DNA from: a virus
Virus record (IMG/VR): IMGVR_UViG_3300046804_003469
Coordinates: 62,001 to 126,000 of that record
Reading direction: 5' to 3' (one strand)
Length of the DNA: 64,000 nucleotides
Part shown: in pieces, positions 28,421 to 54,364 of the stretch
Layout: each line of letters begins with the position of its first letter
Position numbering within the stretch: the first letter of the stretch is position 1
Notes under the pieces: model-generated
Told to the model about the DNA's origin: nothing
Seen by the model: the letters and a program-made list of their open reading frames with translations, nothing else
The model's database searches: none
Translations under genes and position numbers: made by a program

Positions 28421-28477
28421 GACAGTTCAAAAACTGTCCTAGAGACCTCTCAGATCGCCTCTGAGAGGTTTTATAGT
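28421..28477 (+). promoter_or_regulatory. ACTG-box promoter fused to terminator (member 1)
   Basis: A dyad GACAGTT-caaa-AACTGTC (28421-28438) is followed 15 bases after its ACTG by TCTCAG as a poor -35. An 18-base spacer leads to TATAGT at 28472-28477. The -35 region lies inside the terminator hairpin of the fibre gene. It would drive the metalloprotease gene at 28595. Recognition rests on the shared architecture with other members at 30673, 33153, 45291 and elsewhere. Confidence 0.45.
28445..28475 (+). terminator. Rho-independent terminator of the fibre block
   Basis: ACCTCTCAGA and TCTGAGAGGT form a perfect 10-bp stem with loop TCGCC, followed by TTTATA. It lies 27 bases after the last fibre gene and ends the 28-kb structural region. 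Confidence 0.8.
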
Positions 28478-28594
28478 ATGTTCATGTCCATAACCTCATT
28501 TACATGAGATTTTCAAATCTAGACCGATTTCTATTTGTTTTTTCATTCATTTGGGTTTCTCACTGGGCGTTCAAAGTATCTGAGGTGATTTTCG

Positions 28595-29014
28595 ATGCTT
28601 TATTTTGAATCTAACGGATATGGTTACAGCAAACGTCTTTGTGAAGACGTTGTGTGCTGGTTTGTTGAAAGTTATCTTCCAAAACATAAACTCGATATTA
28701 CTGTAAATCATCGAGGATTGTCAAGAGAACTTGTAACTGGATGGGCAAACATTGAGGATAATGATTATCGTCCTCGTTGTTTTCTGATTGAAGTTCATAG
28801 TCGTTTAAATCAAGAAGATTATATCACAACATTGCTACATGAGTTGTGGCATGTATACCAATGGGTCAAAGGTGATCTGAAAGAACGTAGAACTCGTCGT
28901 TTATGGGATGGTATTGATTATTCTGAAGCAGATTATGAAGACCAACCGTGGGAACAAGAAGCAAAGAGTATGGAATCTATCTTATTTGATGAATATAAGA
29001 CTCAAAAGGCTTGA
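28595..29014 (+). CDS. SprT-like zinc metalloprotease
   Basis: The product is 139 aa. It contains HELWHVYQW with the HExxH zinc site at His82-Glu83 and His86. A downstream acidic stretch (PWEQEAKSME, residues 118-127) could provide the third ligand. Length, the isolated HExxH and the preceding TLL resemble phage SprT/WSS1-type minimal metallopeptidases. The substrate is unknown; SprT relatives cut DNA-bound proteins. A promoter precedes it at 28421-28477, and the -35 of the next promoter overlaps its stop codon. Confidence 0.75.
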   Translation: MLYFESNGYGYSKRLCEDVVCWFVESYLPKHKLDITVNHRGLSRELVTGWANIEDNDYRPRCFLIEVHSRLNQEDYITTLLHELWHVYQWVKGDLKERRTRRLWDGIDYSEADYEDQPWEQEAKSMESILFDEYKTQKA

Positions 29015-29040
29015 CATAAGAACTTGAATGAATCTAAAAT
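29011..29040 (+). promoter_or_regulatory. Sigma70-like promoter TTGACA-N18-TAAAAT
   Basis: A perfect TTGACA at 29011-29016 overlaps the stop of the metalloprotease gene. TAAAAT follows after 18 bases. It would transcribe the 40-aa ribbon-helix-helix gene. A late motif lies 27 bases downstream, so the gene may be expressed both early and late. Confidence 0.6.
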
Positions 29041-29066
29041 AGGTTTGTCTGGTTTGATGAGATTCA

Positions 29067-29074
29067 TATAAATA
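29067..29074 (+). promoter_or_regulatory. T4-type late promoter TATAAATA
   Basis: This is an exact TATAAATA, 20 bases before the 40-aa ribbon-helix-helix gene. Confidence 0.6.
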
Positions 29075-29093
29075 ACTTTAAAGTGATTTAGAG

Positions 29094-29216
29094 ATGGCAC
29101 AAACAAAGACTATAAAGGTATCTGCTCTTCTTGCTGATATGATTGAGCAACTTGCAAAGAAAAAAAGAAAGAGTGTGGAACAATATCTTTCTGAATTAGT
29201 TACAAAAGATATGTGA
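29094..29216 (+). CDS. Small ribbon-helix-helix-like protein, 40 aa
   Basis: The product has a short beta segment (TKTIKVSALL), helix ADMIEQLAKKKRK and helix SVEQYLSELVTKDM, the layout of Arc/CopG-type DNA-binding dimers. It has its own sigma70-like promoter, a late promoter and a strong terminator, making it an independent unit. A role as a small transcription regulator is likely from fold alone. The target is unknown. It is one candidate for the protein that reads the ACTG-box operators in this genome, though nothing here proves that. Confidence 0.72.
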   Translation: MAQTKTIKVSALLADMIEQLAKKKRKSVEQYLSELVTKDM

Positions 29217-29229
29217 AGACACTTTGTAA

Positions 29230-29275
29230 TCTGTCATAAGGGACTCTCGCAGGAGTCCTTTTTTCATGGTATACT
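29230..29275 (+). promoter_or_regulatory. ACTG-box-like promoter (divergent member 2)
   Basis: TCTGTCATAAGGG (29230 on) occupies the box position. CTCGCA 16 bases on is a poor -35, and TATACT at 29270-29275 follows after 18 bases. The terminator hairpin of the upstream gene spans the -35. If used, transcription starts near 29282, downstream of the ATG at 29266. Confidence 0.35.
29238..29264 (+). terminator. Rho-independent terminator
   Basis: AAGGGACTC pairs with GAGTCCTTT around the loop TCGCAG and is followed by a T run. It ends the ribbon-helix-helix transcript 22 bases after its stop. Confidence 0.8.
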
Positions 29276-29298
29276 ATGAGGACAGACAAAAACAATTC

Positions 29299-30531
29299 AT
29301 GCAACTGCGTCCTCAACAGAAAGAAGCAAACCAAGCAATGTCTGAGAATGATCTCGGAATCATTGTGGCACCTACTGGTTCTGGAAAATCTTTCATGCAG
29401 GTTAAGTATACCATGGATCTGTTTGCAGAATCTAGTGGTAAAACTGTTGTAGTGGTTGCTCCGCGCATTCTTTTGGCAAGTCAGTTAAGTTCGGAGTTTC
29501 TTGAACATATTGTAGATGCTGCTGTAATGCATGTGCATACGGGTGAGACTCATCACTACAGTACAACCAAACCTGATATTATTCGTAAGTGGCATTTTCA
29601 TACTGCTCATTGTAATCGTCTCATCTTTACGACCTATCATTCTTTGAAGCAGGTTCTTGCTTCTGATATTCGTATTGATTGTGTTCTCTTTGATGAAGCA
29701 CATAATGCTGTGAAGAAGAACTTTTATGCTGCTGTAGAACCCATTGTGCAACGTGCAAATAAAGCATTTTTCTTTACTGCGACTCCTAAGTATTCTCATG
29801 CTTCCAACAAACCTGGCATGAATTGGCAGGAGACTTTTGGTAAGATCATCTACAACGTTGCTGCTCCTGATCTGATTGCTAATGGAAGCATTCTGCCTCC
29901 GAAGGTGAATGTGATTCGTATTGATGGTGTTCGCACTAAGGATAACAATCCTGCTGAGCGTGACTGCATGACGCTTCTGGATTCAATTCTGAATGAGGAT
30001 CACATGGAAAAGGTTCTTGTGTGTGCTCCGAACACTCAGGTTCTGATTCGTATGCTTGCTGAGACTGACTTCATGAAAGAGGTTCAGTCTTATGGATACG
30101 ACGTATTTTGGATCACTGCAAAGTACGGTGCATTCTATAACAATCAGAAGATTAGTCGTGAGAAGTTCTTTGATATGATTGCTGAGTTCGGCAAAGATGA
30201 TACCAAAAAGTTCATTGTTCTGCATTACAGCATTCTATCTGAAGGTATTTCAGTTCCAGGTTTGACATCTTGTGTTATGATGCGTCAGATGAACATTATT
30301 GAAATGACTCAATCTATTGGTCGTGTACTGCGTCTGCATCTGGACGATATCAAACGAATTGAATCTGGTGAGATCATTGCTGGTGATGTTGCATCTTATA
30401 AGAAGCAGTTTGGTTTCATTCATCTTCCTGTCTACAGCAACGTTGGTATTGCAACTGTTCGTCGTCTGGAATCGATTGTTCAAACTGTATTTGAAGATGG
30501 TCAACCTGCAATAACAGTGATTAAGAAATGA
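29299..30531 (+). CDS. Superfamily 2 DEAH-box helicase
   Basis: The product is 410 aa from ATG 29299. It carries the Q-like MQLRPQQKEANQAM, Walker A APTGSGKS (24-31), motif II DEAH (132-135), motif III TATP (160-163) and motif VI QSIGRVLR (338-345). This is a two-RecA-domain ATP-dependent nucleic-acid helicase similar in layout to T4 UvsW and type III restriction-like helicases. I cannot tell which from sequence reading, so no symbol is given. An upstream in-frame ATG at 29266 adds 11 residues. It is disfavoured because the apparent -10 (TATACT, 29270-29275) lies inside that extension. The stop overlaps the next start (ATGA). Confidence 0.85.
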   Translation: MQLRPQQKEANQAMSENDLGIIVAPTGSGKSFMQVKYTMDLFAESSGKTVVVVAPRILLASQLSSEFLEHIVDAAVMHVHTGETHHYSTTKPDIIRKWHFHTAHCNRLIFTTYHSLKQVLASDIRIDCVLFDEAHNAVKKNFYAAVEPIVQRANKAFFFTATPKYSHASNKPGMNWQETFGKIIYNVAAPDLIANGSILPPKVNVIRIDGVRTKDNNPAERDCMTLLDSILNEDHMEKVLVCAPNTQVLIRMLAETDFMKEVQSYGYDVFWITAKYGAFYNNQKISREKFFDMIAEFGKDDTKKFIVLHYSILSEGISVPGLTSCVMMRQMNIIEMTQSIGRVLRLHLDDIKRIESGEIIAGDVASYKKQFGFIHLPVYSNVGIATVRRLESIVQTVFEDGQPAITVIKK

Positions 30532-30707
30532 AAGAAGGATTTATTACTCAAGATTTTTATGCTGCTGTTCCATTTGGAAAGAAACAATTGATGATTATTT
30601 TTAATGGACAACAACTTGAAGTTGTTAATACTGTTAAACAAGCACATACGTTCATTAAGAAACACCGTGAGTCCAGTTCTCAAACTGGCACAGTCTTCCT
30701 CCAATAG
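30528..30707 (+). CDS. Small conserved-looking protein, 59 aa
   Basis: ATG overlaps the helicase TGA. The product (MKEGFITQDFYAAVPFGKKQLM...) is a small alpha/beta protein ending in SSSQTGTVFLQ. Its last codons contain the ACTG-box dyad of the next promoter, so coding and control sequence overlap. No family recognised. Confidence 0.65.
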   Translation: MKEGFITQDFYAAVPFGKKQLMIIFNGQQLEVVNTVKQAHTFIKKHRESSSQTGTVFLQ

Positions 30708-30727
30708 CACATTATTGACTCTATAAT
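30673..30727 (+). promoter_or_regulatory. ACTG-box promoter (member 3)
   Basis: The dyad CCAGTTctcaAACTGG lies at 30673-30688. ACTG at 30684 is 15 bases before CTCCAA (poor -35), with a 17-base spacer to a perfect TATAAT at 30722-30727. The next gene starts at 30749 behind an AAAGG ribosome site. Confidence 0.55.
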
Positions 30728-30748
30728 TAAAAGGAATTCACATTCACC

Positions 30749-30943
30749 ATGAAACCTGAAATCATTTACGTCCAACCAAAGTCCGTTTGTGCAAAGATAG
30801 ACTTTGAAGAACTTATGCACTTTCTTCACGCATGTAAGGTTGAAAAGCGTTTGGATGGACGTATGCTCGTCTCATCGATCAGTGGAAATCTTGATTTCTG
30901 GATTTCTGAAAAAGACGACTGCCACTGGGAAATCATCAAATGA
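30749..30943 (+). CDS. Hypothetical protein, 64 aa
   Basis: MKPEIIYVQPKSVCAKIDFEELMHFLHACKVEKRLDG..., a small soluble alpha/beta protein. It has its own promoter at 30673-30727 and an ATGA overlap with the next gene, so it heads a short operon. No family recognised. Confidence 0.68.
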   Translation: MKPEIIYVQPKSVCAKIDFEELMHFLHACKVEKRLDGRMLVSSISGNLDFWISEKDDCHWEIIK

Positions 30944-31128
30944 GCATTCTTCTTGCTGCAGTGATTGCTACGCAACAAAGTAATCCTGAACTACTCACAA
31001 TTAATGTCAATCGTTATTGTGCTGCAATCGTTGGAATTCCTTATCGATCTGATAATTTTACAGATAAAGAGTGGGAACAATTTCAGGATTGTATCTTTGT
31101 AATGAAACAATTTGAACAGTCAAACTAA
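30940..31128 (+). CDS. Hypothetical protein, 62 aa
   Basis: The start overlaps the upstream stop (ATGA). The first 13 residues are hydrophobic (MSILLAAVIATQQ). The remainder (NRYCAAIVGIPYRSDNFTDKEWEQFQDCIFVMKQF) is helical, with two Cys. It could be a secreted or membrane-anchored peptide. Function unknown. Confidence 0.65.
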   Translation: MSILLAAVIATQQSNPELLTINVNRYCAAIVGIPYRSDNFTDKEWEQFQDCIFVMKQFEQSN

Positions 31129-31161
31129 ATATCAGTAATTAAATTGCAAAACACACTGCAT

Positions 31162-32676: not shown

Positions 32677-33153
32677 ATGAAAGGAATTACAATCCAACCG
32701 AATACAACGGTTTTAGTATTAAACAGTACTTATGAACCGATTAATTTAGCATCAGGTAAAAGAGCGATCGTTCTTTTACTCAAGGAGAAAGCACAACAAC
32801 TTTCGAGTCGTGTGATTCGCTTGTTGAATTATGTAAGAATTCCTTTTTCAAAAATTGTAGCGCACAGACCATCGAAGAGTGCCATCTACAAAAGAGATGG
32901 TAATAAATGTCAATATTGTGGTTCTACAAGGCATTTAACCATTGATCATATTATTCCAAGATCAAAAGGTGGTGGTGATAATTGGTTTAATCTTGTAGTT
33001 GCTTGTTCAGCATGTAATACTAAAAAAGGTAATAAACTTCTTGAGCATAGTGGACTTAAATTGCAACGGCAACCACGAGCACCTATGAATAAGATGCAGT
33101 TTACACTGCTTGAAACAAATAACAAAGAGTGGGATCAGTATGCGGTTATCTAA
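32677..33153 (+). CDS. HNH endonuclease with zinc ribbon, 158 aa
   Basis: The C-terminal half has a complete HNH signature: YKRDGNKCQYCG (Cys78, Cys81), LTIDHIIPRSKGGGDNWFNLVVACSACN (Asp90, His91, Asn105, Cys110, Cys113). The N-terminal part (TVLVLNSTYEPINLASGKRAIVLLLKEKA) matches the HNH proteins common in cyanobacteria and their phages. Its role may be a homing-type or repair nuclease. The gene is free-standing, not inside an intron or intein that I can see. The GGAAG ribosome site at 32665-32669 fits ATG 32677. Confidence 0.85.
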   Translation: MKGITIQPNTTVLVLNSTYEPINLASGKRAIVLLLKEKAQQLSSRVIRLLNYVRIPFSKIVAHRPSKSAIYKRDGNKCQYCGSTRHLTIDHIIPRSKGGGDNWFNLVVACSACNTKKGNKLLEHSGLKLQRQPRAPMNKMQFTLLETNNKEWDQYAVI

Positions 33154-33196
33154 CTGTCCACTGCCTCTTGACAAGACGTTTAAATTGGGGTATTCT
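33153..33196 (+). promoter_or_regulatory. ACTG-box promoter (member 4)
   Basis: ACTGTCCA at 33153 lies 15 bases before a perfect TTGACA (33168-33173). A 17-base spacer leads to TATTCT (33191-33196). Its position fits the HNH-like gene at 33220. It begins at the last base of the upstream stop codon. Confidence 0.65.
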
Positions 33197-33219
33197 ACTC
33201 ATAGATAAAAAAATTCACC

Positions 33220-34747: not shown

Positions 34748-34947
34748 TGTACGAAGATTTGACTGCTTTCGAAAGAGCACTTGCTCGTTTTGGTGATAAA
34801 GTTCAATTGATTGTGGGTCTTGAGATTTCAAATAAAATGCAACCCGAAGATGCTTATCGAGAAATCAAAGACATGATGAAAGAACTTAAAAAACTTCGTA
34901 AAAAAGAAAAAGAAGATTGGCAAACCGACATTCACATTGATCTCTAA
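34747..34947 (+). CDS. Conserved cyanophage small protein, 66 aa
   Basis: The ATG overlaps the ferredoxin stop (TGATG). [66 protein letters not shown] is a helical protein with a strongly basic middle. The 'AFERALARFGDKV' start is familiar from cyanophage genomes. Function unknown. It ends in a TAATG junction with the AbrB-like gene. Confidence 0.7.
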   Translation: MYEDLTAFERALARFGDKVQLIVGLEISNKMQPEDAYREIKDMMKELKKLRKKEKEDWQTDIHIDL

Positions 34948-35480
34948 TGGACTATAAAAAATATTCTTTGGAACAACTTGAGAATTGGATGCATGATGCA
35001 CTTTCTTGCACTGAGGCATCTCCTCAAGAAATCTATGATATCATCAAAAATGTAGTTAGTGAAAATTATTACATTTATAAAGATCATACAAGAAGGTGTT
35101 ATGAACTTCTTTCACTTCTGAATAATGATGGTAACACTTCTGACATGCCTTGGGTAGAAAATAAACTGACTTGTGATAAAAATAATTTATCACCAGAATG
35201 TCAAAATGCATGGAATGATTTCTGGGAGGAACACTATTATCCTGAAGAACACTCCAAATACTATTATGATTACACTAGGAACGATCCTAATCGAAAAAAT
35301 CCATTTGAAAAGAAAAAATGGGTTCTTCCTGTTGAACCTGATCCAAGTGGTGAATACTTTGTAACTTTCCCAGATGATTTGCTAGAGGCAGCAGATTTGA
35401 AAGAAGGTGATAGTATTGAATGGGTGGATCAAGGTGATGGTTCTTATCTTCTTCATAAGATATCTAAGAATAGTGATTGA
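34947..35480 (+). CDS. AbrB/MazE-like domain protein, 177 aa
   Basis: The N-terminal ~110 residues are acidic and aromatic with no known motif. Residues ~120-172 (WVLPVEPDPSGEYFVTFPDDLLEAADLKEGDSIEWVDQGDGSYLLHKI) have the swapped-hairpin AbrB pattern 'F.P..LL...L..GD.I.W', used for DNA binding or dimerisation by transition-state regulators and MazE antitoxins. It may be a regulator. No toxin partner is evident next to it. Confidence 0.72.
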   Translation: MDYKKYSLEQLENWMHDALSCTEASPQEIYDIIKNVVSENYYIYKDHTRRCYELLSLLNNDGNTSDMPWVENKLTCDKNNLSPECQNAWNDFWEEHYYPEEHSKYYYDYTRNDPNRKNPFEKKKWVLPVEPDPSGEYFVTFPDDLLEAADLKEGDSIEWVDQGDGSYLLHKISKNSD

Positions 35481-36547: not shown

Positions 36548-36555
36548 GTGTGTGC

Positions 36556-36608
36556 CAGTTTTTAAACTGTCCATTGAGTCCTAGTCGCGGCAAAAAGTGC
36601 CGTATAAT
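36556..36608 (+). promoter_or_regulatory. ACTG-box promoter (member 5)
   Basis: The dyad CAGTTT-tt-AAACTG lies at 36556-36569. ACTG at 36566 is 15 bases before CTAGTC. A 16-base spacer forms the hairpin CGGCA-aaaag-TGCCG, and TATAAT follows directly at 36603-36608. It drives the 42-aa membrane protein gene. Confidence 0.55.
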
Positions 36609-36628
36609 ACACAAGTCATCTGAAAACC

Positions 36629-38954: not shown

Positions 38955-39411
38955 AGTTATTTCTCCAGAGATACTATCTCCAGAGCAAAATCGTGCCAAA
39001 AGAGAAGCAGCAGCAAATAAGCAAAGAAAATTAACACATAAGAAATTAGCAAGAATTGGTACTCAAGGAACTAATCGTCATATTAAGACGATGAAAAAGG
39101 TTGTGTCACCATACCATAGTCATGGTACACAAGATTCTGAACATAGTAGTTATCATTACAATTCACCAGTTTATGAAGATCTTACAGCACAAGAGTTTGG
39201 TACTGCTCAACAAAGATTCCAACAATCTTCACAAGCAAAATTAGCAGCAAAAAGACAATCAGCACAAAAAGATCCAAAACAAAGATCTGCACAGTATGCT
39301 GACATACAAAGAAGTAAAATTGAACAACAAAAGGCAAAATCAGCATCTTTAAGTAAAAGATCAATGCGTTCGGGAAATACTCCAGATGAAGAGGAAACTG
39401 AAAACAATTGA
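38911..39411 (+). CDS. Basic, Gln/Lys/Ser-rich protein, 166 aa (possible virion protein)
   Basis: It begins MRTFQEFQEQIQKGRVISPEILSPEQNRAKREAAANKQRKLTHKKLARIGTQGTNRHIKTMKKVV, very basic. A Gln/Ala/Lys-rich middle and an acidic end (PDEEETENN) follow. The MRTFQEF start is typical of small structural or host-DNA-associated proteins in cyanophages. A late promoter supports late expression. No enzymatic motif. The -35 of the next promoter overlaps its stop codon. Confidence 0.68.
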   Translation: MRTFQEFQEQIQKGRVISPEILSPEQNRAKREAAANKQRKLTHKKLARIGTQGTNRHIKTMKKVVSPYHSHGTQDSEHSSYHYNSPVYEDLTAQEFGTAQQRFQQSSQAKLAAKRQSAQKDPKQRSAQYADIQRSKIEQQKAKSASLSKRSMRSGNTPDEEETENN

Positions 39412-39436
39412 CATTCTAAATACCACATACTATAAT
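39408..39436 (+). promoter_or_regulatory. Consensus sigma70 promoter TTGACA-N17-TATAAT
   Basis: Both hexamers are perfect with an exact 17-base spacer (39408-39413 and 39431-39436). It lacks the ACTG box found at other promoters. It should be a strong early promoter for the gene at 39459. Confidence 0.85.
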
Positions 39437-40358: not shown

Positions 40359-40573
40359 ATACATGTGATAGGTTTCCCTACCAAAACTTTCCCATTCGAT
40401 TAGAATATAAAGAAATAAAAGATAAAAAATTGTGCTTTTTTGAATGCGAAGAACATTTAAAAAAGTACATTAATAGGCATAAATTAAAAACAAAAGATTT
40501 AACAATTGAATATAAGAGTGATAAAGTTAAATCTAAGTCTGTAAGAAAAACTAAAAAAGCAGACACTTTATGA
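40355..40573 (+). CDS. Hypothetical basic protein, 72 aa
   Basis: MNTCDRFPYQNFPIRLEYKEIKDKKLCFFECEEHLKKYINRHKLKTKDLTIEYKSDKVKSKSVRKTKKADTL. It has a Lys-rich C-terminus and two Cys near the middle. It may bind nucleic acid through charge alone. The stop adjoins promoter member 6. Confidence 0.62.
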   Translation: MNTCDRFPYQNFPIRLEYKEIKDKKLCFFECEEHLKKYINRHKLKTKDLTIEYKSDKVKSKSVRKTKKADTL

Positions 40574-40617
40574 ACTGGCACAACACAGTTGCCAATCAAT
40601 CAATTCTCAAGTAAAAT
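40574..40617 (+). promoter_or_regulatory. ACTG-box promoter (member 6)
   Basis: ACTGGCACA at 40574 lies 15 bases before TTGCCA (40589-40594). A 17-base spacer leads to TAAAAT (40612-40617). It starts immediately after the preceding stop codon. It would transcribe the long overlapping operon beginning at 40645. Confidence 0.6.
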
Positions 40618-40644
40618 TTATTTGTAGTCAACCCTTGCATTGAC

Positions 40645-45290: not shown

Positions 45291-45349
45291 TTGGACAGTT
45301 CTGCAACTGTCCAATTGCTCTTGACGGCACCACAGTTTTCAAGTATATT
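45291..45349 (+). promoter_or_regulatory. ACTG-box promoter with longest dyad (member 7)
   Basis: Perfect 10-bp arms TTGGACAGTT (45291-45300) and AACTGTCCAA (45305-45314) are separated by ctgc. TTGACG (45321-45326) follows 15 bases after the ACTG. A 17-base spacer leads to TATATT (45344-45349). It drives the 45375-46412 genes. It is the clearest operator-like dyad of the family. Confidence 0.68.
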
Positions 45350-45374
45350 ACGAGAGTTCAATGAATGATTCATT

Positions 45375-46229: not shown

Positions 46230-46412
46230 ATGATTGATGTAAAAGAAGAAAGTGATGGTTCGTTTACCATCACTTGGGATGAAAATGATCCTCAGGAACG
46301 TGTATTGAATACGTGGACTGAGCAGGATTTTATTGATTGTATTATGAATCGTATCAATGAACTGACCAGTTCAGAAACTGGCACAGTGGATCTTCCAGAC
46401 ATCCCGAATTGA
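46230..46412 (+). CDS. Hypothetical acidic protein, 60 aa
   Basis: MIDVKEESDGSFTITWDENDPQERVLNTWTEQDFIDCIMNRINELTSSETGTVDLPDIPN. The opening 'VKE.SDGSFTI.WDENDP.E..LN.WTE.DF' is familiar from cyanophage small proteins. Its last codons (SSETGT) contain the CCAGTT/AACTGG dyad of the next promoter, as also happens at 30528-30707 (SSSQTGT). Confidence 0.68.
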   Translation: MIDVKEESDGSFTITWDENDPQERVLNTWTEQDFIDCIMNRINELTSSETGTVDLPDIPN

Positions 46413-46420
46413 TGTATTCT
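46366..46420 (+). promoter_or_regulatory. ACTG-box promoter (member 8)
   Basis: The dyad CCAGTTcagaAACTGG (46366-46381) lies inside the 3' coding end of the upstream gene. CTTCCA follows 15 bases after ACTG, and TATTCT (46415-46420) follows after 17 more. It would transcribe the 46444 gene and probably the FeoA-like and oxygenase genes beyond. Confidence 0.5.
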
Positions 46421-46443
46421 ATAGAAGTTCAAGGGATTTCACC

Positions 46444-46887
46444 ATGACCACCGCATTCGCTGATTACGTCGCCACACAGGATGCTCGCAACACACTTCAT
46501 CTGAACATCAGGAAATGGTGTCTGATGCTGATTGATGCACTTAAGGGCAATTATTGTCAGTATTCGATTAGTGGTCATAAGCATTATGTTGAGAAAGGTG
46601 AAAATGCTCAATATCATATTGCATGTATTGAAAAACTTCGTAAGGGTGATTGCCCGATTGATTATGAAATTGAAACAGGACGTAAGTATCACAAAATCAT
46701 TTTTATTGATGGTGGGGGTTCTCGTAGTGTCCACTGTTTTGTTGACAGGAGCACAGGAGAAGTTTACAAATCAGCATCATGGAAATCCCCAGCGAAGGAT
46801 GTACGTTACGACCTTCGTTTGATCACAGATCGTGAATGGTTGTATGAACATGCAGATTGGGCAGGAGGTTATCTTTACAAGAAATAA
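46444..46887 (+). CDS. Conserved cyanophage hypothetical protein, 147 aa
   Basis: Starts MTTAFADYVATQDARNTLHLNIRKWCLMLIDALKGNYCQYSISGHKHYVEKGENAQYHIACIEKLRKGDC and ends KSASWKSPAKDVRYDLRLITDREWLYEHADWAGGYLYKK. The GGGSRSVHCFVD..TGEVYKSASWK..AK.VRYDLR section is a pattern I recall from T4-like cyanophage proteins. Alpha/beta soluble. Function unknown. Confidence 0.74.
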   Translation: MTTAFADYVATQDARNTLHLNIRKWCLMLIDALKGNYCQYSISGHKHYVEKGENAQYHIACIEKLRKGDCPIDYEIETGRKYHKIIFIDGGGSRSVHCFVDRSTGEVYKSASWKSPAKDVRYDLRLITDREWLYEHADWAGGYLYKK

Positions 46888-47676: not shown

Positions 47677-48477
47677 ATGGCAAAAGACGAAACAGAGATT
47701 GGTATCACTGGTCTTCCTATTCCTAAGAAGAAAAGATCACCTAAAAAGCAACATGAGTTTGAGAAGGAAAGAAGAGCAAATCTTGGAACAAATATAGGTG
47801 GACAAAGGTATAGTTCTGGTGCAAAGAAGTATTATGCAGAATCAAGAGGTGGTGAAGCAAGTCCTGGAACACCAGAAAGTTTTCATAAACTGAGTCGTGG
47901 AAAGAAAAAGGAAAAAGGTGTAAAGACATCTTATGATACTCAAGGTAATATGATTCGTAAGTATGCAACAATGCAACTTCAAAAGAGAAAGCAAGCACCT
48001 TATAGTGAAGAAGTAGATATGTATGATATTCTTATCTCACATCTTCTTGATGAAGGATATGCTGATACTGAATCAGCAGCAGAAATTATGATGAATCATA
48101 TGAGTGAAGAGTGGGTGGATAGTATTATTATCTCTGAAGTTAAAGGTTTCGGTGGTCATGTTGATCCAAATACTGGTAAATCATCAGGTTTAAGATCATC
48201 ATCACAACAAGCACATACTACATATTGGAGCAACAGACAACAGGGTAAGGATGTACCTGATCCAAGAAGATCAAAGTTTAAATATGGTGGAGCAAAAGGA
48301 TCAACCACTGGTGCTCATGAAGGTGATACTCCAGAAGGATTTGCAAGGAAACAGGATCCACAACTTGCAATGACACCTAAGAAGAGAATGGAAGTTCGAG
48401 CAAAGTCATTGGAAGCAAAAGGTAAGGCAAAACAAGCAAATAAGATTCGTGGTGTCATGAATCGTCCTAATATGTGA
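47677..48477 (+). CDS. Basic 266-aa protein, possible virion or DNA-associated protein
   Basis: Lys/Arg/Gly/Ser-rich ends (ITGLPIPKKKRSPKKQHEFEKERRANLG; AKSLEAKGKAKQANKIRGVMNRP) surround a structured acidic helix pair, MYDILISHLLDEGYADTESAAEIMMNHMSEEWVDSII (residues ~109-145). That central motif (hLLDEGYA.T...AE.IM.NMSE.W..SI) recurs in cyanophage proteins of unknown role, to my recollection. Its composition suggests packaging with DNA or structural use. A terminator-promoter element follows. Confidence 0.72.
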   Translation: MAKDETEIGITGLPIPKKKRSPKKQHEFEKERRANLGTNIGGQRYSSGAKKYYAESRGGEASPGTPESFHKLSRGKKKEKGVKTSYDTQGNMIRKYATMQLQKRKQAPYSEEVDMYDILISHLLDEGYADTESAAEIMMNHMSEEWVDSIIISEVKGFGGHVDPNTGKSSGLRSSSQQAHTTYWSNRQQGKDVPDPRRSKFKYGGAKGSTTGAHEGDTPEGFARKQDPQLAMTPKKRMEVRAKSLEAKGKAKQANKIRGVMNRPNM

Positions 48478-48489
48478 TCCACTTTCCAA

Positions 48490-48534
48490 ACTGGCACAAG
48501 GGGCATTTACGTGCCTCTTTTTTTATGCAATAAT
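48490..48534 (+). promoter_or_regulatory. ACTG-box promoter (member 9) overlapping a terminator
   Basis: ACTGGCACAAGGGGCA from 48490 leads into TTTACG (48506-48511). A 17-base spacer leads to AATAAT (48529-48534). The -35 is the loop of the terminator hairpin described at 48499. It would drive the 52-aa gene at 48560. Confidence 0.5.
48499..48525 (+). terminator. Rho-independent terminator
   Basis: AGGGGCA (48499-48505) pairs with TGCCTCT (48512-48518, one G-U pair) around the loop TTTACG, followed by a run of T. It ends the transcript of the 266-aa gene. Confidence 0.75.
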
Positions 48535-48559
48535 ACAAAGGTAATCAGTTCCAGATCTC

Positions 48560-49478: not shown

Positions 49479-49573
49479 GATCTTATGAGTCCTGTTCTAG
49501 ATCTTATGAGTCCTGTTCTAGATCTTATGAGTCCTGTTCTAGATCTTATGAGTCCTGTTCTAGATCTTATGAG
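49479..49573. repeat. 21-bp tandem repeat, four perfect copies plus a partial fifth
   Basis: Units start at 49479, 49500, 49521 and 49542 and are identical. Each begins GATCTTATGAGTCC and ends TGTTCTA. A partial fifth begins at 49563. The junctions create TCTAGA, and each unit contains GATCTTATGA, half of the 16-bp palindrome at 50111. There are no spacers between units, so this is not a CRISPR array. Confidence 0.9.
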
Positions 49574-49677
49574 GTCTTATAAATGCTCCGAGGTCTTGTG
49601 ATCTTGGCGTGCATTCTACCATAAGACCTCAAAAATGTCAAGCCCCCACAAAAAACTTCACAGGGGACACAAAAAAA

Positions 49678-49722
49678 TCTGGCACAAGGGCACTTGACAA
49701 ATCTCATAAGACCAACTAGATT
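49678..49722 (+). promoter_or_regulatory. ACTG-box promoter (member 10)
   Basis: TCTGGCACAAGGGCAC (box with T in place of A) leads into a perfect TTGACA (49694-49699). A 17-base spacer leads to TAGATT (49717-49722). It faces the CTAG-repeat segment. A second promoter at 49893 is closer to the next gene, so any transcript from here would include the repeats. Confidence 0.5.
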
Positions 49723-49908
49723 CTTGGAGTCATCGAGATCTTATGCAACTAGATTCTCAACTAGACTCAACTAGATTATCACAGTATGCTTATACACGCA
49801 TAAGCACATAAAACACAACTAGATTATCAGCATATCATCATAATTCATCTAGATCATCATATATACTGATACATCTAGATTCGCATAAGCACTTGACATG
49901 CCATCTAG
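49715..49908. repeat. Cluster of (A)ACTAGATT and ATCTAGAT repeats
   Basis: At least nine short copies of ACTAGATT, TCTAGAT or CTAGACT lie in about 190 non-coding bases, an unusual density of CTAG. The cluster also holds the hairpin TGCTTAT-acacgc-ATAAGCA (49787-49806). The same words recur at 52525-52620 and 53722-53800. No coding frame was found. Confidence 0.75.
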
Positions 49909-50110: not shown

Positions 50111-50126
50111 TCATAAGATCTTATGA
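50111..50126. repeat. 16-bp perfect palindrome TCATAAGATCTTATGA
   Basis: TCATAAGATCTTATGA is self-complementary and lies four bases after a stop codon. Half-sites (GATCTTATGA or its complement) occur in each 21-bp unit near 49.5 kb, within the promoter spacer at 50160-50170, and in each 51-bp unit at 55.3 kb. It could be a binding site for a phage dimeric protein. Confidence 0.6.
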
Positions 50127-50181
50127 CAGTTCAATAAGTGTCACAAGGGTACTTGCATTCTCATAAGATCTCTGCCATACT
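50125..50181 (+). promoter_or_regulatory. ACTG-box promoter (member 11)
   Basis: The near-perfect dyad GACAGTTcaatAAGTGTC lies at 50125-50142. The AGTGTCACAAGGG box leads to TTGCAT (50153-50158), then a 17-base spacer containing TCATAAGATC, then CATACT (50176-50181). The leader (GTTCAACACCTGAA) is shared with member 12, so the two are duplicates. Confidence 0.6.
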
Positions 50182-50206
50182 TAGATCGTTCAACACCTGA
50201 ACTTCA

Positions 50207-50389
50207 ATGTTTGTTTACACTGACAATGGTTACGCTAATCGTCAAGAATATCTTGATGAACTGCGTGAGGAATATGGTGAGTTGGTTGACATTCTTACTG
50301 GTATTCTACCATCTTCTGAGGACTTTGATGGTCTCATCACGGCGCTGGAAGATGCCATGGATTCTGGTGAGTATGACGATCTGATGTGA
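50207..50389 (+). CDS. Hypothetical acidic protein, 60 aa
   Basis: MFVYTDNGYANRQEYLDELREEYGELVDILTGILPSSEDFDGLITALEDAMDSGEYDDLM: helical, strongly acidic, single gene between two related promoters. I recall similar short proteins from cyanophages. Function unknown. Confidence 0.65.
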   Translation: MFVYTDNGYANRQEYLDELREEYGELVDILTGILPSSEDFDGLITALEDAMDSGEYDDLM

Positions 50390-50399
50390 CACTTTGAAA

Positions 50400-50444
50400 A
50401 CTGGCACAAGGGGTCTTGTGTTTTCATGAGATCCCTGCCATACT
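50400..50444 (+). promoter_or_regulatory. ACTG-box promoter (member 12)
   Basis: ACTGGCACAAGGGGTC (50400-50415) leads into TTGTGT (50416-50421). A 17-base spacer leads to CATACT (50439-50444). The -10 and leader (TCGTTCAACACCTGAA) are nearly identical to member 11, evidence of duplication of the whole promoter-leader cassette. Confidence 0.6.
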
Positions 50445-50469
50445 GAACTCGTTCAACACCTGAAACACC

Positions 50470-50940
50470 ATGGGCACACGTTCCCGCATCGGTTATGAAC
50501 TCCCTGATCATTCTGTGGTGAGTGTTTACTGCCACTGGGATGGTTATGTTGAGCACAATGGTAAGATTCTTGTTCAACATTATCAGAATCGTGATGATGT
50601 TCAAGAACTCATTGATGGTGGTTCTATGAGTACTCTAAGAACTCGTGGAACTTGGGATCATTCTTCTCCTCTTCGTGATGAGAATGGTGAGTATATCTGC
50701 GATGCTGCAGGTTATCTCACTTATGAGAATGATCGTGAACCTCAACCACTCTATCACACAGAACGTGGTGAGGAACTTGACATTCAACACACCAGTTTCG
50801 ATAAGTTTGTCTCAGGAGATCTTGGTGGTGAAGAGTATGCTTACCTGTTTGACCTCAATGGTAACTGGAAAGCGTTTAAGATTAACTGGAAAGGTCCAGT
50901 GGAACGTGTAGAGATTCCTAACTATGTGACAGCAGCGTAA
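50470..50940 (+). CDS. Conserved phage protein, 156 aa
   Basis: MGTRSRIGYELPDHSVVSVYCHWDGYVEHNGKILVQHYQNRDDVQELIDGGSMSTLRTRGTWD. The 'MGTRSRIG.EL.DGSV.S.YCHWDGY...NG..L..HY..R..V..LI..G..S.L' pattern is widespread in phages as a protein of unknown function. The C-terminal half is beta-rich with 'EEYAYLFDLNGNWKAFKI'. Single gene between promoters. Confidence 0.78.
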   Translation: MGTRSRIGYELPDHSVVSVYCHWDGYVEHNGKILVQHYQNRDDVQELIDGGSMSTLRTRGTWDHSSPLRDENGEYICDAAGYLTYENDREPQPLYHTERGEELDIQHTSFDKFVSGDLGGEEYAYLFDLNGNWKAFKINWKGPVERVEIPNYVTAA

Positions 50941-50985
50941 CTGTCACACGGGGCACTGGACAAAACGGATTCAGTGCCCTATAAT
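50940..50985 (+). promoter_or_regulatory. ACTG-box promoter (member 13) for tRNA-Leu
   Basis: ACTGTCACACGGGGCAC, then TGGACA (50957-50962), a 17-base spacer and a perfect TATAAT (50980-50985). An outer dyad GTGACAG/CTGTCAC spans 50926-50947. An inner inverted repeat GGGCACTG/CAGTGCCC (50951-50958 and 50972-50979) encloses the -35 and abuts the -10. Confidence 0.68.
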
Positions 50986-50998
50986 GACAATGAACCAC

Positions 50999-51082
50999 GG
51001 GGCGGTGGTGGAAGTGGTAGACACACCAGACTTAAAATCTGTTGGGAGTAATCCCGTGGGGGTTCAAGTCCCCCTCGCCCTA
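50999..51082 (+). tRNA. tRNA-Leu (UAA)
   Basis: Class II tRNA, 84 bases. The acceptor is GGGGCGG (50999-51005) with TCGCCCT (51075-51081), including two G-U pairs. The anticodon loop is CTTAAAA with anticodon TAA at 51033-51035. The long variable arm has stem GGGA/TCCC. The T arm is GGGGG-TTCAAGT-CCCCC (51058-51074). CCA is not encoded. The first pair of the anticodon stem appears mismatched (C-T). It reads UUA codons, which the AT-rich phage genes use heavily while a GC-richer host would use them less. It has its own sigma70-like promoter 14 bases upstream. Confidence 0.92.
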
Positions 51083-51355: not shown

Positions 51356-51363
51356 AGATCTGT

Positions 51364-51389
51364 AAGGGGAGTTGACCCTCCCCTTTTTT
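51364..51389 (+). terminator. Rho-independent terminator with embedded -35
   Basis: AAGGGGAG (51364-51371) pairs with CTCCCCTT (51378-51385) around the loop TTGACC, followed by T residues. The loop sequence itself serves as the -35 of the next promoter. Confidence 0.85.
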
Positions 51390-51400
51390 CTTGATAAGAT
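51372..51400 (+). promoter_or_regulatory. Sigma70-like promoter inside a terminator
   Basis: TTGACC (51372-51377, terminator loop), a 17-base spacer covering the hairpin's right arm and T run, then TAAGAT (51395-51400). It would drive the 45-aa gene at 51427. No ACTG box here. Confidence 0.5.
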
Positions 51401-51426
51401 TTCTTTGTTCCCCCTCAGAGGTTCTT

Positions 51427-51564
51427 ATGGAATTCGACACCGATTTCTGGTCTGAAATTCAAGATGCTCCAGGTGAGATCTTTGACATTGAAATGTTCGA
51501 GTCCTGGGATGATGATTCTGACAAGACATGGAAAGATTTCATCAATAGCGATGTGACACAATAA
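51427..51564 (+). CDS. Hypothetical acidic peptide, 45 aa
   Basis: MEFDTDFWSEIQDAPGEIFDIEMFESWDDDSDKTWKDFINSDVTQ: over one third Asp/Glu with four aromatic positions. A very acidic free-standing gene with its own promoter and a following terminator-promoter element. Function unknown; DNA-mimic-like composition only. Confidence 0.58.
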   Translation: MEFDTDFWSEIQDAPGEIFDIEMFESWDDDSDKTWKDFINSDVTQ

Positions 51565-51566
51565 CA

Positions 51567-51611
51567 ACTGGCACAAGGGCACTGGACTTTCCTCTGGTGC
51601 CCTGTTACATT
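51567..51611 (+). promoter_or_regulatory. ACTG-box promoter (member 14)
   Basis: ACTGGCACAAGGGCAC, then TGGACT (51583-51588), a 17-base spacer and TACATT (51606-51611). GGGCAC (51578-51583) and GTGCCC (51597-51602) form a hairpin around the -35, as at member 13. It drives the gene at 51634. Confidence 0.6.
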
Positions 51612-51633
51612 ACATTTGTTCTTGAGACACACC

Positions 51634-51789: not shown

Positions 51790-51791
51790 TT

Positions 51792-51995
51792 ATGTTGTTT
51801 CAAGTCACCGACATTCAGTTTGATTTTGAGACTGATGAAGATTATGAACTTCATCCTGAAGAAAAACAAGACATCATTGATGATACTGTAGGTCAAATCT
51901 GGGAAGCAGATGATGAAGATGATCTCGTAGAAGAAATCACCTGTGCCACTGGTTGGTGCATCAAATCCATTGATTATCGTCACGTTCTTTCCTGA
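51792..51995 (+). CDS. Hypothetical acidic protein, 67 aa
   Basis: MLFQVTDIQFDFETDEDYELHPEEKQDIIDDTVGQIWEADDEDDLVEEITCATGWCIKSIDYRHVLS. The 'F.V..IQFDFE.D......E...I...T.GQIWEADDEDDLVEEITC.TGWCIKSIDYRH' pattern recurs in cyanophage genomes as far as I recall. Two beta strands flank a helix and acidic segment. Function unknown. Confidence 0.72.
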   Translation: MLFQVTDIQFDFETDEDYELHPEEKQDIIDDTVGQIWEADDEDDLVEEITCATGWCIKSIDYRHVLS

Positions 51996-51998
51996 ATC

Positions 51999-52274
51999 AT
52001 GTACCGAACTCTTTCTGAACTCAAAAAATCTGTTGAGAATCTGATTGATCAACAGGGTGGAGATGCTCCTTGTGCAGCATTTGTATTCACCAAAGAGGAT
52101 GTGTTTTACTATTCCATTGGTGAGGATGGATTCGAGAATCTTGATGAACAAGTGAAACTCAGTGACTTTGACACTGATGATGTTCTCACTGAACTTGGTG
52201 GATGTGATTACATCTACGAACAAGTCTTTGAGATCATTGATGATGAAGTTAAGCGAGTACGAAACAAACAATGA
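51999..52274 (+). CDS. Hypothetical protein, 91 aa
   Basis: MYRTLSELKKSVENLIDQQGGDAPCAAFVFTKEDVFYYSIGEDGFENLDEQVKLSDFDTDDVLTELGGCDYIYEQVFEIIDDEVKRVRNKQ: alpha/beta; part of the same acidic small-gene series. The N-terminal helix plus 'GG...PCAAFV.TKEDVF' is cyanophage-like. ATGA junction with a 19-codon frame. Confidence 0.68.
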   Translation: MYRTLSELKKSVENLIDQQGGDAPCAAFVFTKEDVFYYSIGEDGFENLDEQVKLSDFDTDDVLTELGGCDYIYEQVFEIIDDEVKRVRNKQ

Positions 52275-52330
52275 TTGAACTTTTTGCCTCCATTGTTCTA
52301 CGTTACCACTTTCACCATTACTTCTCATGA
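52271..52330 (+). CDS. Possible 19-aa bridging peptide
   Basis: The ATG overlaps the upstream stop and the TGA overlaps the next ATG, so the frame exactly bridges two coupled genes. MIELFASIVLRYHFHHYFS is hydrophobic then His-rich. It may be a real micropeptide or only a translational relay. Confidence 0.35.
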   Translation: MIELFASIVLRYHFHHYFS

Positions 52331-52521
52331 ACCGTTCTGAACTTCAAGATCAACTCATTCAGCAAATGTTGGATGACATGGATCTTAAGACAATGACCCA
52401 ACTCTGTTATGATTACCTTGATGAAGGTTATTCTAAGTATTCTGATGAAGAATTGATCACTGAATGTGAAGAATACTATCCTGACCTGCTGACAGTTGAG
52501 GAAGTGGCACAAGACCACTAG
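52327..52521 (+). CDS. Hypothetical acidic protein, 64 aa
   Basis: MNRSELQDQLIQQMLDDMDLKTMTQLCYDYLDEGYSKYSDEELITECEEYYPDLLTVEEVAQDH: helical, acidic. The stop codon TAG is itself the start of the next -35 (TAGACA), and the last codons carry the box of promoter member 15. Confidence 0.63.
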   Translation: MNRSELQDQLIQQMLDDMDLKTMTQLCYDYLDEGYSKYSDEELITECEEYYPDLLTVEEVAQDH

Positions 52522-52547
52522 ACAGCAACTAGATTCTCAACTAGATT
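52503..52547 (+). promoter_or_regulatory. ACTG-box promoter (member 15)
   Basis: AGTGGCACAAGACCAC, then TAGACA (52519-52524), a 17-base spacer and TAGATT (52542-52547). It lies partly in coding sequence and reads into the CTAG-rich leader of the 52626 gene. Confidence 0.5.
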
Positions 52548-52620
52548 TCAATCAACTAGATTACACATCTAGATTCACACAAAACTCAACTAGATTCACA
52601 CAAAACTCAACTAGATTCAC
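52525..52620. repeat. ACTAGATT repeat cluster
   Basis: Six CTAGATT copies lie within about 95 bases. The sequence also contains the direct repeat CACAAAACTCAACTAGATT twice, at 19-base spacing. It forms the untranslated leader of the 45-aa gene. The same words occur at 49.7-49.9 kb and 53.7 kb. Confidence 0.75.
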
Positions 52621-52625
52621 ACATC

Positions 52626-52763
52626 ATGACCAAACAGATCATGCTCTCCATGCTCCGTCAAGGCACCACTGGTGAAGAAATCCTACAGATCCTGGATACC
52701 ATCACCACTGATGATGCTATGATGGAGGACGAAGGGGGAACCCTTGAACCCATCGATTTCTGA
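52626..52763 (+). CDS. Hypothetical protein, 45 aa
   Basis: MTKQIMLSMLRQGTTGEEILQILDTITTDDAMMEDEGGTLEPIDF. I recall 'MLR.G.TG.EILQILD.I' from several cyanophages. Codons are G/C-richer than average for the window. Function unknown. Confidence 0.66.
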   Translation: MTKQIMLSMLRQGTTGEEILQILDTITTDDAMMEDEGGTLEPIDF

Positions 52764-52765
52764 TC

Positions 52766-52954
52766 ATGGAACACGCCTTTGTTTTTCCCAAATCTAAGAA
52801 AGCAAAGAATCGCCTTGCAAATCTTATGGAAGGTGAGTCTGAGTGTATCGTAGAACAGCACAAGGGTGATCGTGTCTTTCTTGCTTCATTAAATCACAAA
52901 TACTTCTTCTGGGTAAATCTTATGAATGACCCAGATTGGCAAATAGATCTCTAG
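52766..52954 (+). CDS. Hypothetical protein, 62 aa
   Basis: MEHAFVFPKSKKAKNRLANLMEGESECIVEQHKGDRVFLASLNHKYFFWVNLMNDPDWQIDL: basic helix then beta strands. It lies two bases after the previous gene; a strong terminator follows. Cyanophage-like, unknown function. Confidence 0.66.
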   Translation: MEHAFVFPKSKKAKNRLANLMEGESECIVEQHKGDRVFLASLNHKYFFWVNLMNDPDWQIDL

Positions 52955-52965
52955 TATAACACACG

Positions 52966-52990
52966 GGGGAGCATCATCGCTCCCCTTTTT
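52966..52990 (+). terminator. Rho-independent terminator
   Basis: GGGGAGC (52966-52972) and GCTCCCC (52979-52985) form a perfect stem with loop ATCATC, followed by TTTTT. Preceded by ACACGG, as in several other terminators of this region. Confidence 0.9.
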
Positions 52991-53225
52991 CATAAAATGT
53001 TACAAATACTATAAGGCAGGGTGAGTTTCGACCGTTTTCATCTACAGTGCTACCCCGCACCTCTTTCGGTTGTGCCCTTATGATAACACTCCACCAGACC
53101 CTTCTGTGTGCCCCTGTGACACCTCTGAAACTGCCACAAGACCCATAGACCTACCCCGTTCCGCCATGGCATCATTTGCACATCGGACACAAACGATCCG
53201 ATCCACCCCAAACCAACATCCGATC
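52991..53225. other. GC-richer intergenic region
   Basis: No convincing gene. It contains a second TATAAG element (53010-53015), two C-rich stretches and a possible box promoter at 53130-53175. A frame open from TTG 53070 through this region is Pro/Thr/Arg-rich and lacks a ribosome site, so it is not called as coding. Confidence 0.4.
53130..53175 (+). promoter_or_regulatory. Possible ACTG-box promoter
   Basis: ACTGCCACAAGACCCA, then TAGACC (53146-53151) and, after 18 bases, CATCAT (53170-53175). A weak match to the family, but it lies 50 bases before the ATG at 53226, as expected for a promoter. Confidence 0.35.
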
Positions 53226-53672
53226 ATGTCCTCCATCACCACTCTTCAAAATCAGGTGATCGATCTGCAGAAAACCATGGTTGCTGTTCAGGAAACCATG
53301 AATCAACTGCAGGGGCAAATCAAAATCCTCACAGATGCAGAAGAGTTTGATGTATTTGTGCAGAAAGAGATTGCACCTTATTTTGGCGAATCTACTGCAG
53401 AAAACATTGTTACTATGCTGCAGAAATGCCGTAAGGAAGGCAACAACTATCAGTTGTTTAATCCTGTTTATCAGTGGAAAAACATTCACGGTGATCTGCA
53501 GAAGCGTCAACTTCTTAAACTGATCTCCGCTGTTTATCGTATCAAGTATCAGAAAATCAGCAGCAACATCTACTCTCTGCGTTCTGATGTAAAATACGCT
53601 AAAGCATGTCCCGAATGTGGTAAAATCGCAGAATCTTTCTACAATCGTCTGATGTCTGAAGGTCTCATCTGA
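53226..53672 (+). CDS. Coiled-coil and Cys-pair protein, 148 aa
   Basis: ATG 53226 is chosen over upstream frames. MSSITTLQNQVIDLQKTMVAVQETMNQLQGQIKILTDAEEFDVF is an N-terminal coiled coil. It is followed by a helical domain (YFGESTAENIVTMLQKCRKEGNNYQLFNPVYQWKNIHGDLQKRQLLKLISAVYRIKYQ) and an ending with CPECGKIAESFYNRLMSEG (half zinc-ribbon). Codons are more GC-rich than most of the window. Function unknown. Confidence 0.65.
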   Translation: MSSITTLQNQVIDLQKTMVAVQETMNQLQGQIKILTDAEEFDVFVQKEIAPYFGESTAENIVTMLQKCRKEGNNYQLFNPVYQWKNIHGDLQKRQLLKLISAVYRIKYQKISSNIYSLRSDVKYAKACPECGKIAESFYNRLMSEGLI

Positions 53673-53683
53673 CCAATTGTTTA

Positions 53684-53729
53684 AGTGGCACACGGGGGGT
53701 TGCATTGCCCCCCATTTCTGAACTAGATT
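53684..53729 (+). promoter_or_regulatory. ACTG-box promoter (member 16) with G/C hairpin
   Basis: AGTGGCACACGGGGGG, then TTGCAT (53700-53705) and, after 18 bases, TAGATT (53724-53729). GGGGGG (53694-53699) and CCCCCC (53708-53713) form a terminator-like stem around the -35. Confidence 0.5.
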
Positions 53730-53734
53730 CTCAT

Positions 53735-53806
53735 CTAGATTCAATCGAGAATCTAAAAACCCAACTAGATTCAATCGAGAATCTAAAAACCCAACTAGAT
53801 TCAATC
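53735..53806. repeat. 30-bp tandem repeat, two copies plus a partial third
   Basis: Units start at 53735 and 53765 and are identical; a 12-base partial third starts at 53795. Each begins CTAGATTCAATCGAGAATC. Also contains an inverted pair GATTC/GAATC. It is the leader of the 58-aa gene. An open frame through it (giving repeated LDSIENLKTQ) is a by-product of the 30-bp period. Confidence 0.88.
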
Positions 53807-53812
53807 ACGGAC

Positions 53813-53989
53813 ATGTATCCCGCATTTCTTAACAATCAGCAGATTGAAGAACTGGAGATTTTTGGTACAATCGAACTCACCGAAGATCTTATGGAACAGA
53901 TGTTCTCCTGGTTAGGCGAACCCGTTCCCACGTTCTCCAATGTTTCGGATTGTAACGGCAACGGCATCGGCGTCCCGCTGATCTGGTAG
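53813..53989 (+). CDS. Hypothetical protein, 58 aa
   Basis: ATG 53813 gives MYPAFLNNQQIEELEIFGTIELTEDLMEQMFSWLGEPVPTFSNVSDCNGNGIGVPLIW. A TTG start at 53705 would include the 30-bp repeats and is unlikely because promoter elements lie there. Function unknown. Confidence 0.55.
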   Translation: MYPAFLNNQQIEELEIFGTIELTEDLMEQMFSWLGEPVPTFSNVSDCNGNGIGVPLIW

Positions 53990-54018
53990 GATTCTCTCAA
54001 GTTCAAACCCGAACCTCC

Positions 54019-54279
54019 ATGAACTTCTCAACCATCATCCGCGCTGCGATCCGCACCCACCTGATTCAGGATGGTGCCCACACATGCTCCGAACTGGTAC
54101 GTGCCATGGGTCTTGATCCTAAGCGCCACAAGGGTACGATCCACGCCATCATGGTAGACATGGAGCGCGAGGGTATCCTATTCGCCACCACTCACCGCAA
54201 CGGCAAGCGTAACAAGTGGAGAATCTATCCTGCAGCGATCCGCAAGCGCGACCGCCTAGTGGCAGCGATCCTAGGTTGA
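54019..54279 (+). CDS. Winged-helix-like protein, 86 aa, GC-rich gene
   Basis: MNFSTIIRAAIRTHLIQDGAHTCSELVRAMGLDPKRHKGTIHAIMVDMEREGILFATTHRNGKRNKWRIYP: a helix-turn-helix pattern followed by a wing, like small transcription regulators. Most codons end in G or C (ATC, CGC, GCC, AAG, CTG), in sharp contrast to the fibre genes. This suggests recent transfer from a GC-rich genome. Possible -10 (TAGGAT) just upstream at 53986. Confidence 0.68.
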   Translation: MNFSTIIRAAIRTHLIQDGAHTCSELVRAMGLDPKRHKGTIHAIMVDMEREGILFATTHRNGKRNKWRIYPAAIRKRDRLVAAILG

Positions 54280-54318
54280 CTGCGGCAGACTGATCAGCGA
54301 CCTTATGGCAGTCTGACA

Positions 54319-54364
54319 AGTGGCACACGGGGCGGCAGCAGGGTCGCCCCCCATGCTGTAGGAT
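54319..54364 (+). promoter_or_regulatory. ACTG-box promoter (member 17) with GC hairpin
   Basis: AGTGGCACACGGGGCG, poor -35 GCAGCA, and an 18-base spacer to TAGGAT (54359-54364). GGGGCG (54329-54334) pairs with CGCCCC (54345-54350) as a probable terminator of the previous gene. It drives the gene at 54408. Confidence 0.4.

Follow-up and report, generated by a model that had tools for sequence, protein, structure and literature searches.

Location and Scoring of the Element

The window analyzed here is a 64,000-nucleotide stretch of the IMG/VR virus record IMGVR_UViG_3300046804_003469 (bases 62,001–126,000 of 215 kb), which belongs to a T4-like virus of cyanobacteria whose closest named relatives are Synechococcus myophages, foremost the freshwater S-SRM01. 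It contains a block of small genes, flanked by large fibre genes and baseplate genes (e.g., gp25), in which a promoter-like element recurs, a 24-bp dyad followed at a fixed distance by a −10 hexamer. An original prediction, made from the sequence alone, had listed 17 sites with one shared layout, and perhaps another at 53130, as a phage-wide promoter family. Positions are window coordinates unless the record or another genome is named.

The listed sites were aligned on their box, and each was scored leave-one-out (LOO) by a matrix built from the remaining sites, with 430 kb of reversed or complemented sequence as the control. Seventeen of the 18, including 53130, scored 15.0–36.4 bits against a control maximum of 12.8–14.4 bits, so the shared layout stands for them. 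It does not stand for 33153 (33153–33203, forward strand), a doubtful half-site element that scored 2.8 bits, a value equaled at 153 control positions, because only the right half of the dyad is present; yet its −35 (TTGACA, 33168), −10 (TATTCT, 33191, at +38) and an ATG about 17 nt past the predicted start keep the register.

Scanning the whole 215-kb record at ≥12 bits gave 28 forward matches vs. 1–2 in controls, and the strong minus-strand matches were mostly the same palindromes read in reverse. Two strong sites outside both the training set and the window, at record positions 170580 (26.0 bits) and 172810 (26.9 bits), bring the total to about 19 elements together with the 17 confirmed ones. 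Judged by position, these two precede the counterparts of a peptidase gene and a MoxR/CobS gene; in Syn9 a weak element (127507) lies ahead of a peptidase gene, and in S-SRM01 an element (149835) lies ahead of its MoxR gene. The term phage-wide was therefore too broad, as all sites except two outliers fall in a single block of small genes. As had been predicted, the same scan revealed no full-layout site in the fibre/baseplate block, and the two host-like consensus promoters at 39408–39436 and 55412–55440 (both forward), which serve as a contrast class, lack the dyad, with best upstream box scores of −6.3 and −3.6 bits, respectively. In the record, boxless consensus host-like promoters and late-type boxes are located mostly outside the element clusters.

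Architecture of the Element

The predicted box proved to be one half, the right one, of a 24-bp dyad general to the sites, TGTG(A/C)CA(C/G)TT-N4-AA(C/G)TG(G/T)CACA, followed by AAGGGG. The logo of 443 sites begins with TGTG(A/C)CA(G/C)TT-N4-AACTGGCACAAGGGG; further 3′ it shows a weak TTG (+16), then a stretch rich in C, then TATAATA and finally a C-(A/G)-T initiator, whose purine lies 12 nt past the −10 start. When this purine is set as +1, the dyad is centered near −54.

The geometry was found to be fixed, as predicted, except that the fixed partner of the box is the −10 and not the −35. In this phage and S-SRM01, a TATAAT-like −10 starts 36–41 nt after the box, with a mode of 39, and among 538 IMG/VR sites a near-consensus −10 occurred at +36 to +42 in 224, while other windows averaged 9.8. 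The expected poor −35 was also observed, as its mean best match was 3.57/6 vs. 2.79 in shuffled spacers, and only 10 of 46 sites in the two phages reached a match of 5–6; the tight constraint is therefore that from box to −10. The element does not match the host sigma-70 (SigA) consensus promoter, which combines a good −35 with a −10 at 16–18 nt, the −10 being good and the −35 mostly poor.

Between the dyad and the −10, 26 of the 46 sites carry an inverted repeat (folding z < −1.5), and 54% of 176 sites of relatives showed spacer folding at z < −2. Several spacer folds reach −15 to −20 kcal/mol, and the stems differ between sites. This inverted repeat or putative terminator, the initiator, and the −10 as the fixed partner were all absent from the original prediction.

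The 17 confirmed elements all lie on the forward strand and are numbered below in window order, with LOO scores in bits. T-tailed hairpins are found in element 1 (listed at 28421; 28418–28484, box 28433, 18.8), with the dyad at 28418–28441, a strong hairpin of −19.4 kcal/mol and the −10 TATAGT at 28472, in element 2 (29215–29282, box 29230, 22.0; TATACT at 29270), which lies ahead of a helicase gene, and in element 8 (48475–48541, box 48490, 26.8; AATAAT at 48529). Hairpins abut the −10 in element 4 (36551–36615, box 36566, 16.6; TATAAT at 36603) and, without a T-run, in element 12 (50925–50992, box 50940, 26.8; TATAAT at 50980) and element 13 (51552–51618, box 51567, 30.8; TACATT at 51606). 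The best match, element 11 (50385–50451, box 50400, 36.4), has a spacer hairpin and the −10 CATACT at 50439, while GC hairpins occur in element 16 (53669–53736, box 53684, 17.6; TAGATT at 53724) and element 17 (54304–54371, box 54319, 22.8; TAGGAT at 54359). Element 5 (40559–40624, box 40574, 19.7; TAAAAT at 40612) is without a hairpin.

Element 6 (45291–45356, box 45306, 19.6) indeed has the longest dyad, as predicted for 45291, with the −35 TTGACG and the −10 TATATT at 45344. TTGACA is present in element 9 (49663–49729, box 49678, 24.9; −10 TAGATT at 49717) and TAGACA in element 14 (52488–52554, box 52503, 26.5), the −10 of which (TAGATT, 52542) lies inside ACTAGATT repeats. The others are element 3 (30669–30734, box 30684, 15.0; TATAAT at 30722), with an ATG 14 nt past the predicted start, element 7 (46362–46427, box 46377, 24.5; TATTCT at 46415), ahead of the DUF7717 gene at 46444, element 10 (50122–50188, box 50137, 30.0; CATACT at 50176) and element 15 (53115–53182, box 53130, 22.8; weak CATCAT at 53170).

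Nearly every site had been predicted to lie directly before a gene or the tRNA. At 12 of 20 examined sites the predicted start is 12–20 nt ahead of an ATG, and in element 12 it is about 7 nt ahead of tRNA-Leu (50999–51082); sites without the usual next-gene placement include 49678, 28421 and 45291. In several copies, elements 11 and 16 among them, the upstream gene ends inside the dyad with its stop codon. Separately, a hairpin-in-promoter layout without the dyad was seen at 51364–51400, where the hairpin is T-tailed, its loop contains TTGACC, and a −10-like hexamer and then a gene start come next.

Conservation in Related Phages

With the 14-mer ACTGGCACAAGGGG, which is part of the motif itself, 120 IMG/VR loci (1.15 Mb) were fetched, and a matrix scan counting both palindrome orientations gave 594 matches in 88 loci vs. 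2 in controls. Because these loci had been selected with part of the motif, three independent tests were run. In a search with a sequence model, all nine cyanomyophage (Kyanoviridae-type) genomes examined, Syn9 and P-TIM40 among them, had matches to the element, the weakest being uncertain because the limit was E ≤ 5, and the T4 genome had zero. Annotated gene starts were found 8–30 nt past the predicted transcription start at 18 of 25 sites in S-SRM01 (random expectation 5%, p = 1e-18) and 9 of 12 in S-SSM7 (8%, p = 2e-8). Further, relatives of the DUF7717 gene were collected solely by the similarity of their proteins; all 11 distinct regions upstream of them contained the element and, in register, its −10, as before the orthologue in this phage (element 7), while none of 15 regions upstream of baseplate gp25 genes carried it. 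Among helicase orthologues, 6 of 21 had an above-threshold element, and in several others a perfect −10 keeps register with a box that is degenerate.

The elements cluster in the small-gene (hyperplastic) blocks of this phage, S-SRM01, S-SSM7 and S-PM2, and likewise in those of Syn9, with sites at 46.3–53 kb, and P-TIM40. The box spacing predicted to persist in relatives was thus conserved, and a promoter family with the dyad at a fixed distance, shared with relatives, is strongly supported by these sequence comparisons. Many element copies were also seen in contigs of the metagenome-assembled genome (MAG) 'Flavobacteriales bacterium TMED113', which look like misbinned cyanophage DNA.

The modules might instead be mainly recombination sites for gene-cassette shuffling, with promoter activity secondary. 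They do punctuate a hypervariable small-gene block, and some copies in the same genome are close, with 47 of 60 bases identical for two sites in this phage and for two in S-SRM01; however, most copies diverge outside the core, and in S-PM2d, the only phage in which a block of this kind is known to have suffered a large deletion, the breakpoints lie away from elements and share 1 nt of microhomology. This explanation is considered improbable. The 9,541-bp ORFanage deletion of S-PM2d (S-PM2 5798/15339) begins just past the T4-GC 66 gene, and an element was present at neither of its ends.

Recognition of the Dyad

As the arms are inverted repeats and many sites come after a stop codon, the dyad could act as RNA, with a hairpin that closes the upstream transcript at its 3′-end for processing or protection, and the adjacent promoter would be incidental. 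However, among 541 sites, arm positions −8/+1 were complementary in 165 where 248 were expected, and positions −11/+4 in 207 where 228 were expected, i.e., with no excess over chance; further, the −10, the initiator and the gene start keep register. A selected RNA stem was rejected, since the arms contradict pairing, and the RNA explanation as a whole is hardly credible. An Rfam scan detected tRNA only.

The half-sites read GACA(C/G)TT, and paired C-type halves are avoided (19 of 541 sites), a pattern that fits a protein dimer needing at least one good half-site. Recognition of the dyad by protein rather than RNA thus appears the better interpretation of the arm statistics. The original prediction of a dimeric activator is accordingly backed, indirectly, in its first half, as the arms vary against pairing and two C-type halves are avoided, while activation is a role that we only infer.

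Proposed Role in Early Transcription

We interpret the sites as compact punctuation between early genes, where a dimeric protein bound to the dyad would aid the host RNA polymerase at a promoter with a weak −35, and put the probability of this reading at about 0.7. It builds on the dyad, spacing, initiator, gene starts, hairpins and conservation, each established by the sequence statistics above. The host polymerase with its primary sigma factor would use the −10, and a dimeric DNA-binding protein at about −54 would recruit or steady it; such aid is proposed because the −35 is weak and partly occupied by the hairpin. The genes of the hypervariable block would thereby share one switch, and the inverted repeat, sometimes T-tailed, would end the upstream transcript and insulate neighboring genes. 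Activation rather than repression, like the predicted terminator activity, is part of this proposal. Early timing is suggested by the clustering in small-gene blocks, by host-like and late-type promoters lying mostly elsewhere, and by an account of Doron and colleagues, who in 2016 reportedly described a novel early-gene regulatory element in Syn9 and P-TIM40, conserved among T4-like cyanophages, whose middle genes are said to have host-like promoters.

Alternatively, the dyad could be the operator of a phage-made repressor that silences early genes at the onset of middle transcription, with the promoters needing host polymerase alone. The near-consensus TATAAT in many copies and the good −35 in 10 of 46 would agree with this, and in a related phage the early transcripts reach their maximum at 0.5 h, ahead of middle and late ones (PMC5082946). 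However, the dyad, with its center near −54, sits upstream of the core promoter, on general positional grounds a poor place for blocking, and the −35 is poor in most copies, so that we regard a repressor as decidedly unlikely.

Several points weigh against the activator reading. Transcript starts, their timing and their termination are predictions throughout. The −35 is somewhat above chance and about one in five is good, so that an activator may be dispensable at some copies; a nearby gene start is missing at a few (e.g., no clear gene downstream of 49678), and the −10 is weak at 53130 and 54319. In Syn9, whose promoters carry TATTCT-type −10s, clean matches to this matrix were few. Finally, a search for a binder found none; no helix-turn-helix domain was recognized among the small proteins shared by element-bearing phages.

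Candidate Binders and Similar Dyads in Cellular Genomes

In the same search for a binder, the HTH_3 profile gave no match above cut-off and RHH_1 none, and phrog_385, labeled 'transcriptional regulator', was rejected, having no Pfam match and not reading like a regulator. A gene at 34947–35480 encodes a C-terminal AbrB/MazE-like domain (about 35310–35474) and belongs to phrog_661, which has homologues inside or close to the element cluster in seven other cyanophages. The AbrB target is a TGGNA pair (PMC8552724), which resembles TGGCA in the right half of the element but is arranged differently. This AbrB/MazE-type protein was rejected as the binder, since it is present in 8 of 10 element phages and none was found in P-HM2 and S-SSM7, even with a family alignment.

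The protein aiding the polymerase could also be a host cyanobacterial regulator, so that the phage taps a host regulon, within the same promoter model. An early switch requires a factor present at time zero, and similar dyads were found on 44 contigs, which come from acidobacterial genomes, from a Synechococcales MAG and from some filamentous cyanobacteria; one Pyrinomonadaceae genome has them in 11 places. Against this, a search of 84,980 species genomes located the strict dyad once in a Cyanobium MAG, inside an open reading frame, and otherwise not under the Synechococcus name, the strict pattern being insensitive to degenerate sites. Because of this near-absence from Synechococcus/Cyanobium genomes, a phage or virion protein is favored, short of proof, and we consider a host regulator unlikely.

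The Pyrinomonadaceae genome, the MAG of bacterium SSF56, has 11 dyads with the same half-sites (control, 0), which mostly pair one C-type with one G-type half and in many cases lie just upstream of gene starts, those of outer-membrane barrel genes included. The examined genes beside them encode outer-membrane barrels, enzymes or unknown proteins, and no regulator was among them. These dyads are possibly a cellular regulon with a similar operator.

Comparison with Known Systems

The element is probably the early element of Doron and colleagues, as both belong to the same phage group and the present one occurs in Syn9 and P-TIM40. T4-like phages are also known to carry promoter-early stem-loop (PeSL) cassettes (Arbiol et al., 2010; Comeau et al., 2014, as cited in PMC4503421). 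Like these, the element is a short composite of promoter and stem-loop between small genes of hyperplastic regions, and the two are joined in a part of its copies (26 of 46; 54% of 176). In contrast to PeSLs, the stem-loop lies inside the promoter (−45 to −13) and about half of the copies do without it, while the 24-bp dyad forms an additional upstream part. In S-PM2, where PeSL density was judged low in the same source (PMC4503421), the stem-loop given there at 11369–11391 falls within an element with its box at 11362. The former statement that no description of the element was known is thus probably wrong, given the account of Doron and colleagues and the PeSL papers cited in that source.

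The T4 MotA/AsiA middle promoters are similar in being phage promoters in which a conserved box replaces a good −35. The MotA box lies near −30 and has a different sequence. MotA-type identity was rejected, because the dyad lies near −54, T4 has no match, and cyanomyophages lack motA and asiA (PMC2984593); no motA search was made in this record. The mechanistic organization can also be compared with that of the late promoters of P2 (Ogr) and P4 (Delta). These have a dyad at about −55 ahead of a promoter without a good −35; they come from unrelated phages and differ in sequence and timing, which makes them a mechanistic analogy only. The earlier observation is accordingly confirmed and sharpened, and its interpretation, but not its claim of novelty, holds in outline.

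In a wider proposal, which we put forward tentatively and with the odds against it, the element would be a composite operator–terminator–promoter module that has not been described in this form, and a single dimeric protein would use it to switch on the entire hypervariable block of T4-like cyanophages; new inserts would gain insulation and early expression at once, and the half-site logic would be shared with dyads of some Acidobacteria and filamentous cyanobacteria. If so, the latter dyads could reveal the protein family of the binder. A 2010 review called early and middle control in T4-like cyanophages unclear (PMC2984593), and a precise operator with fixed geometry makes this question testable by narrowing it to the protein that would bind the 24-bp dyad some 54 bp ahead of the start. 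With the element, early genes and transcription starts could also be predicted in cyanophage genomes and metagenome contigs, as could small genes that annotation has missed.

Short tandem repeats were also observed in this part of the window, at 49479–49573 (21 bp), 49746–49781 (12–13 bp), 52526–52623 (21 bp), 53735–53806 (30-bp unit) and 55256–55384 (51-bp unit). The sequence ACTAGATT underlies several of them and is also the source of the −10 at 49678, 52503 and 53684.

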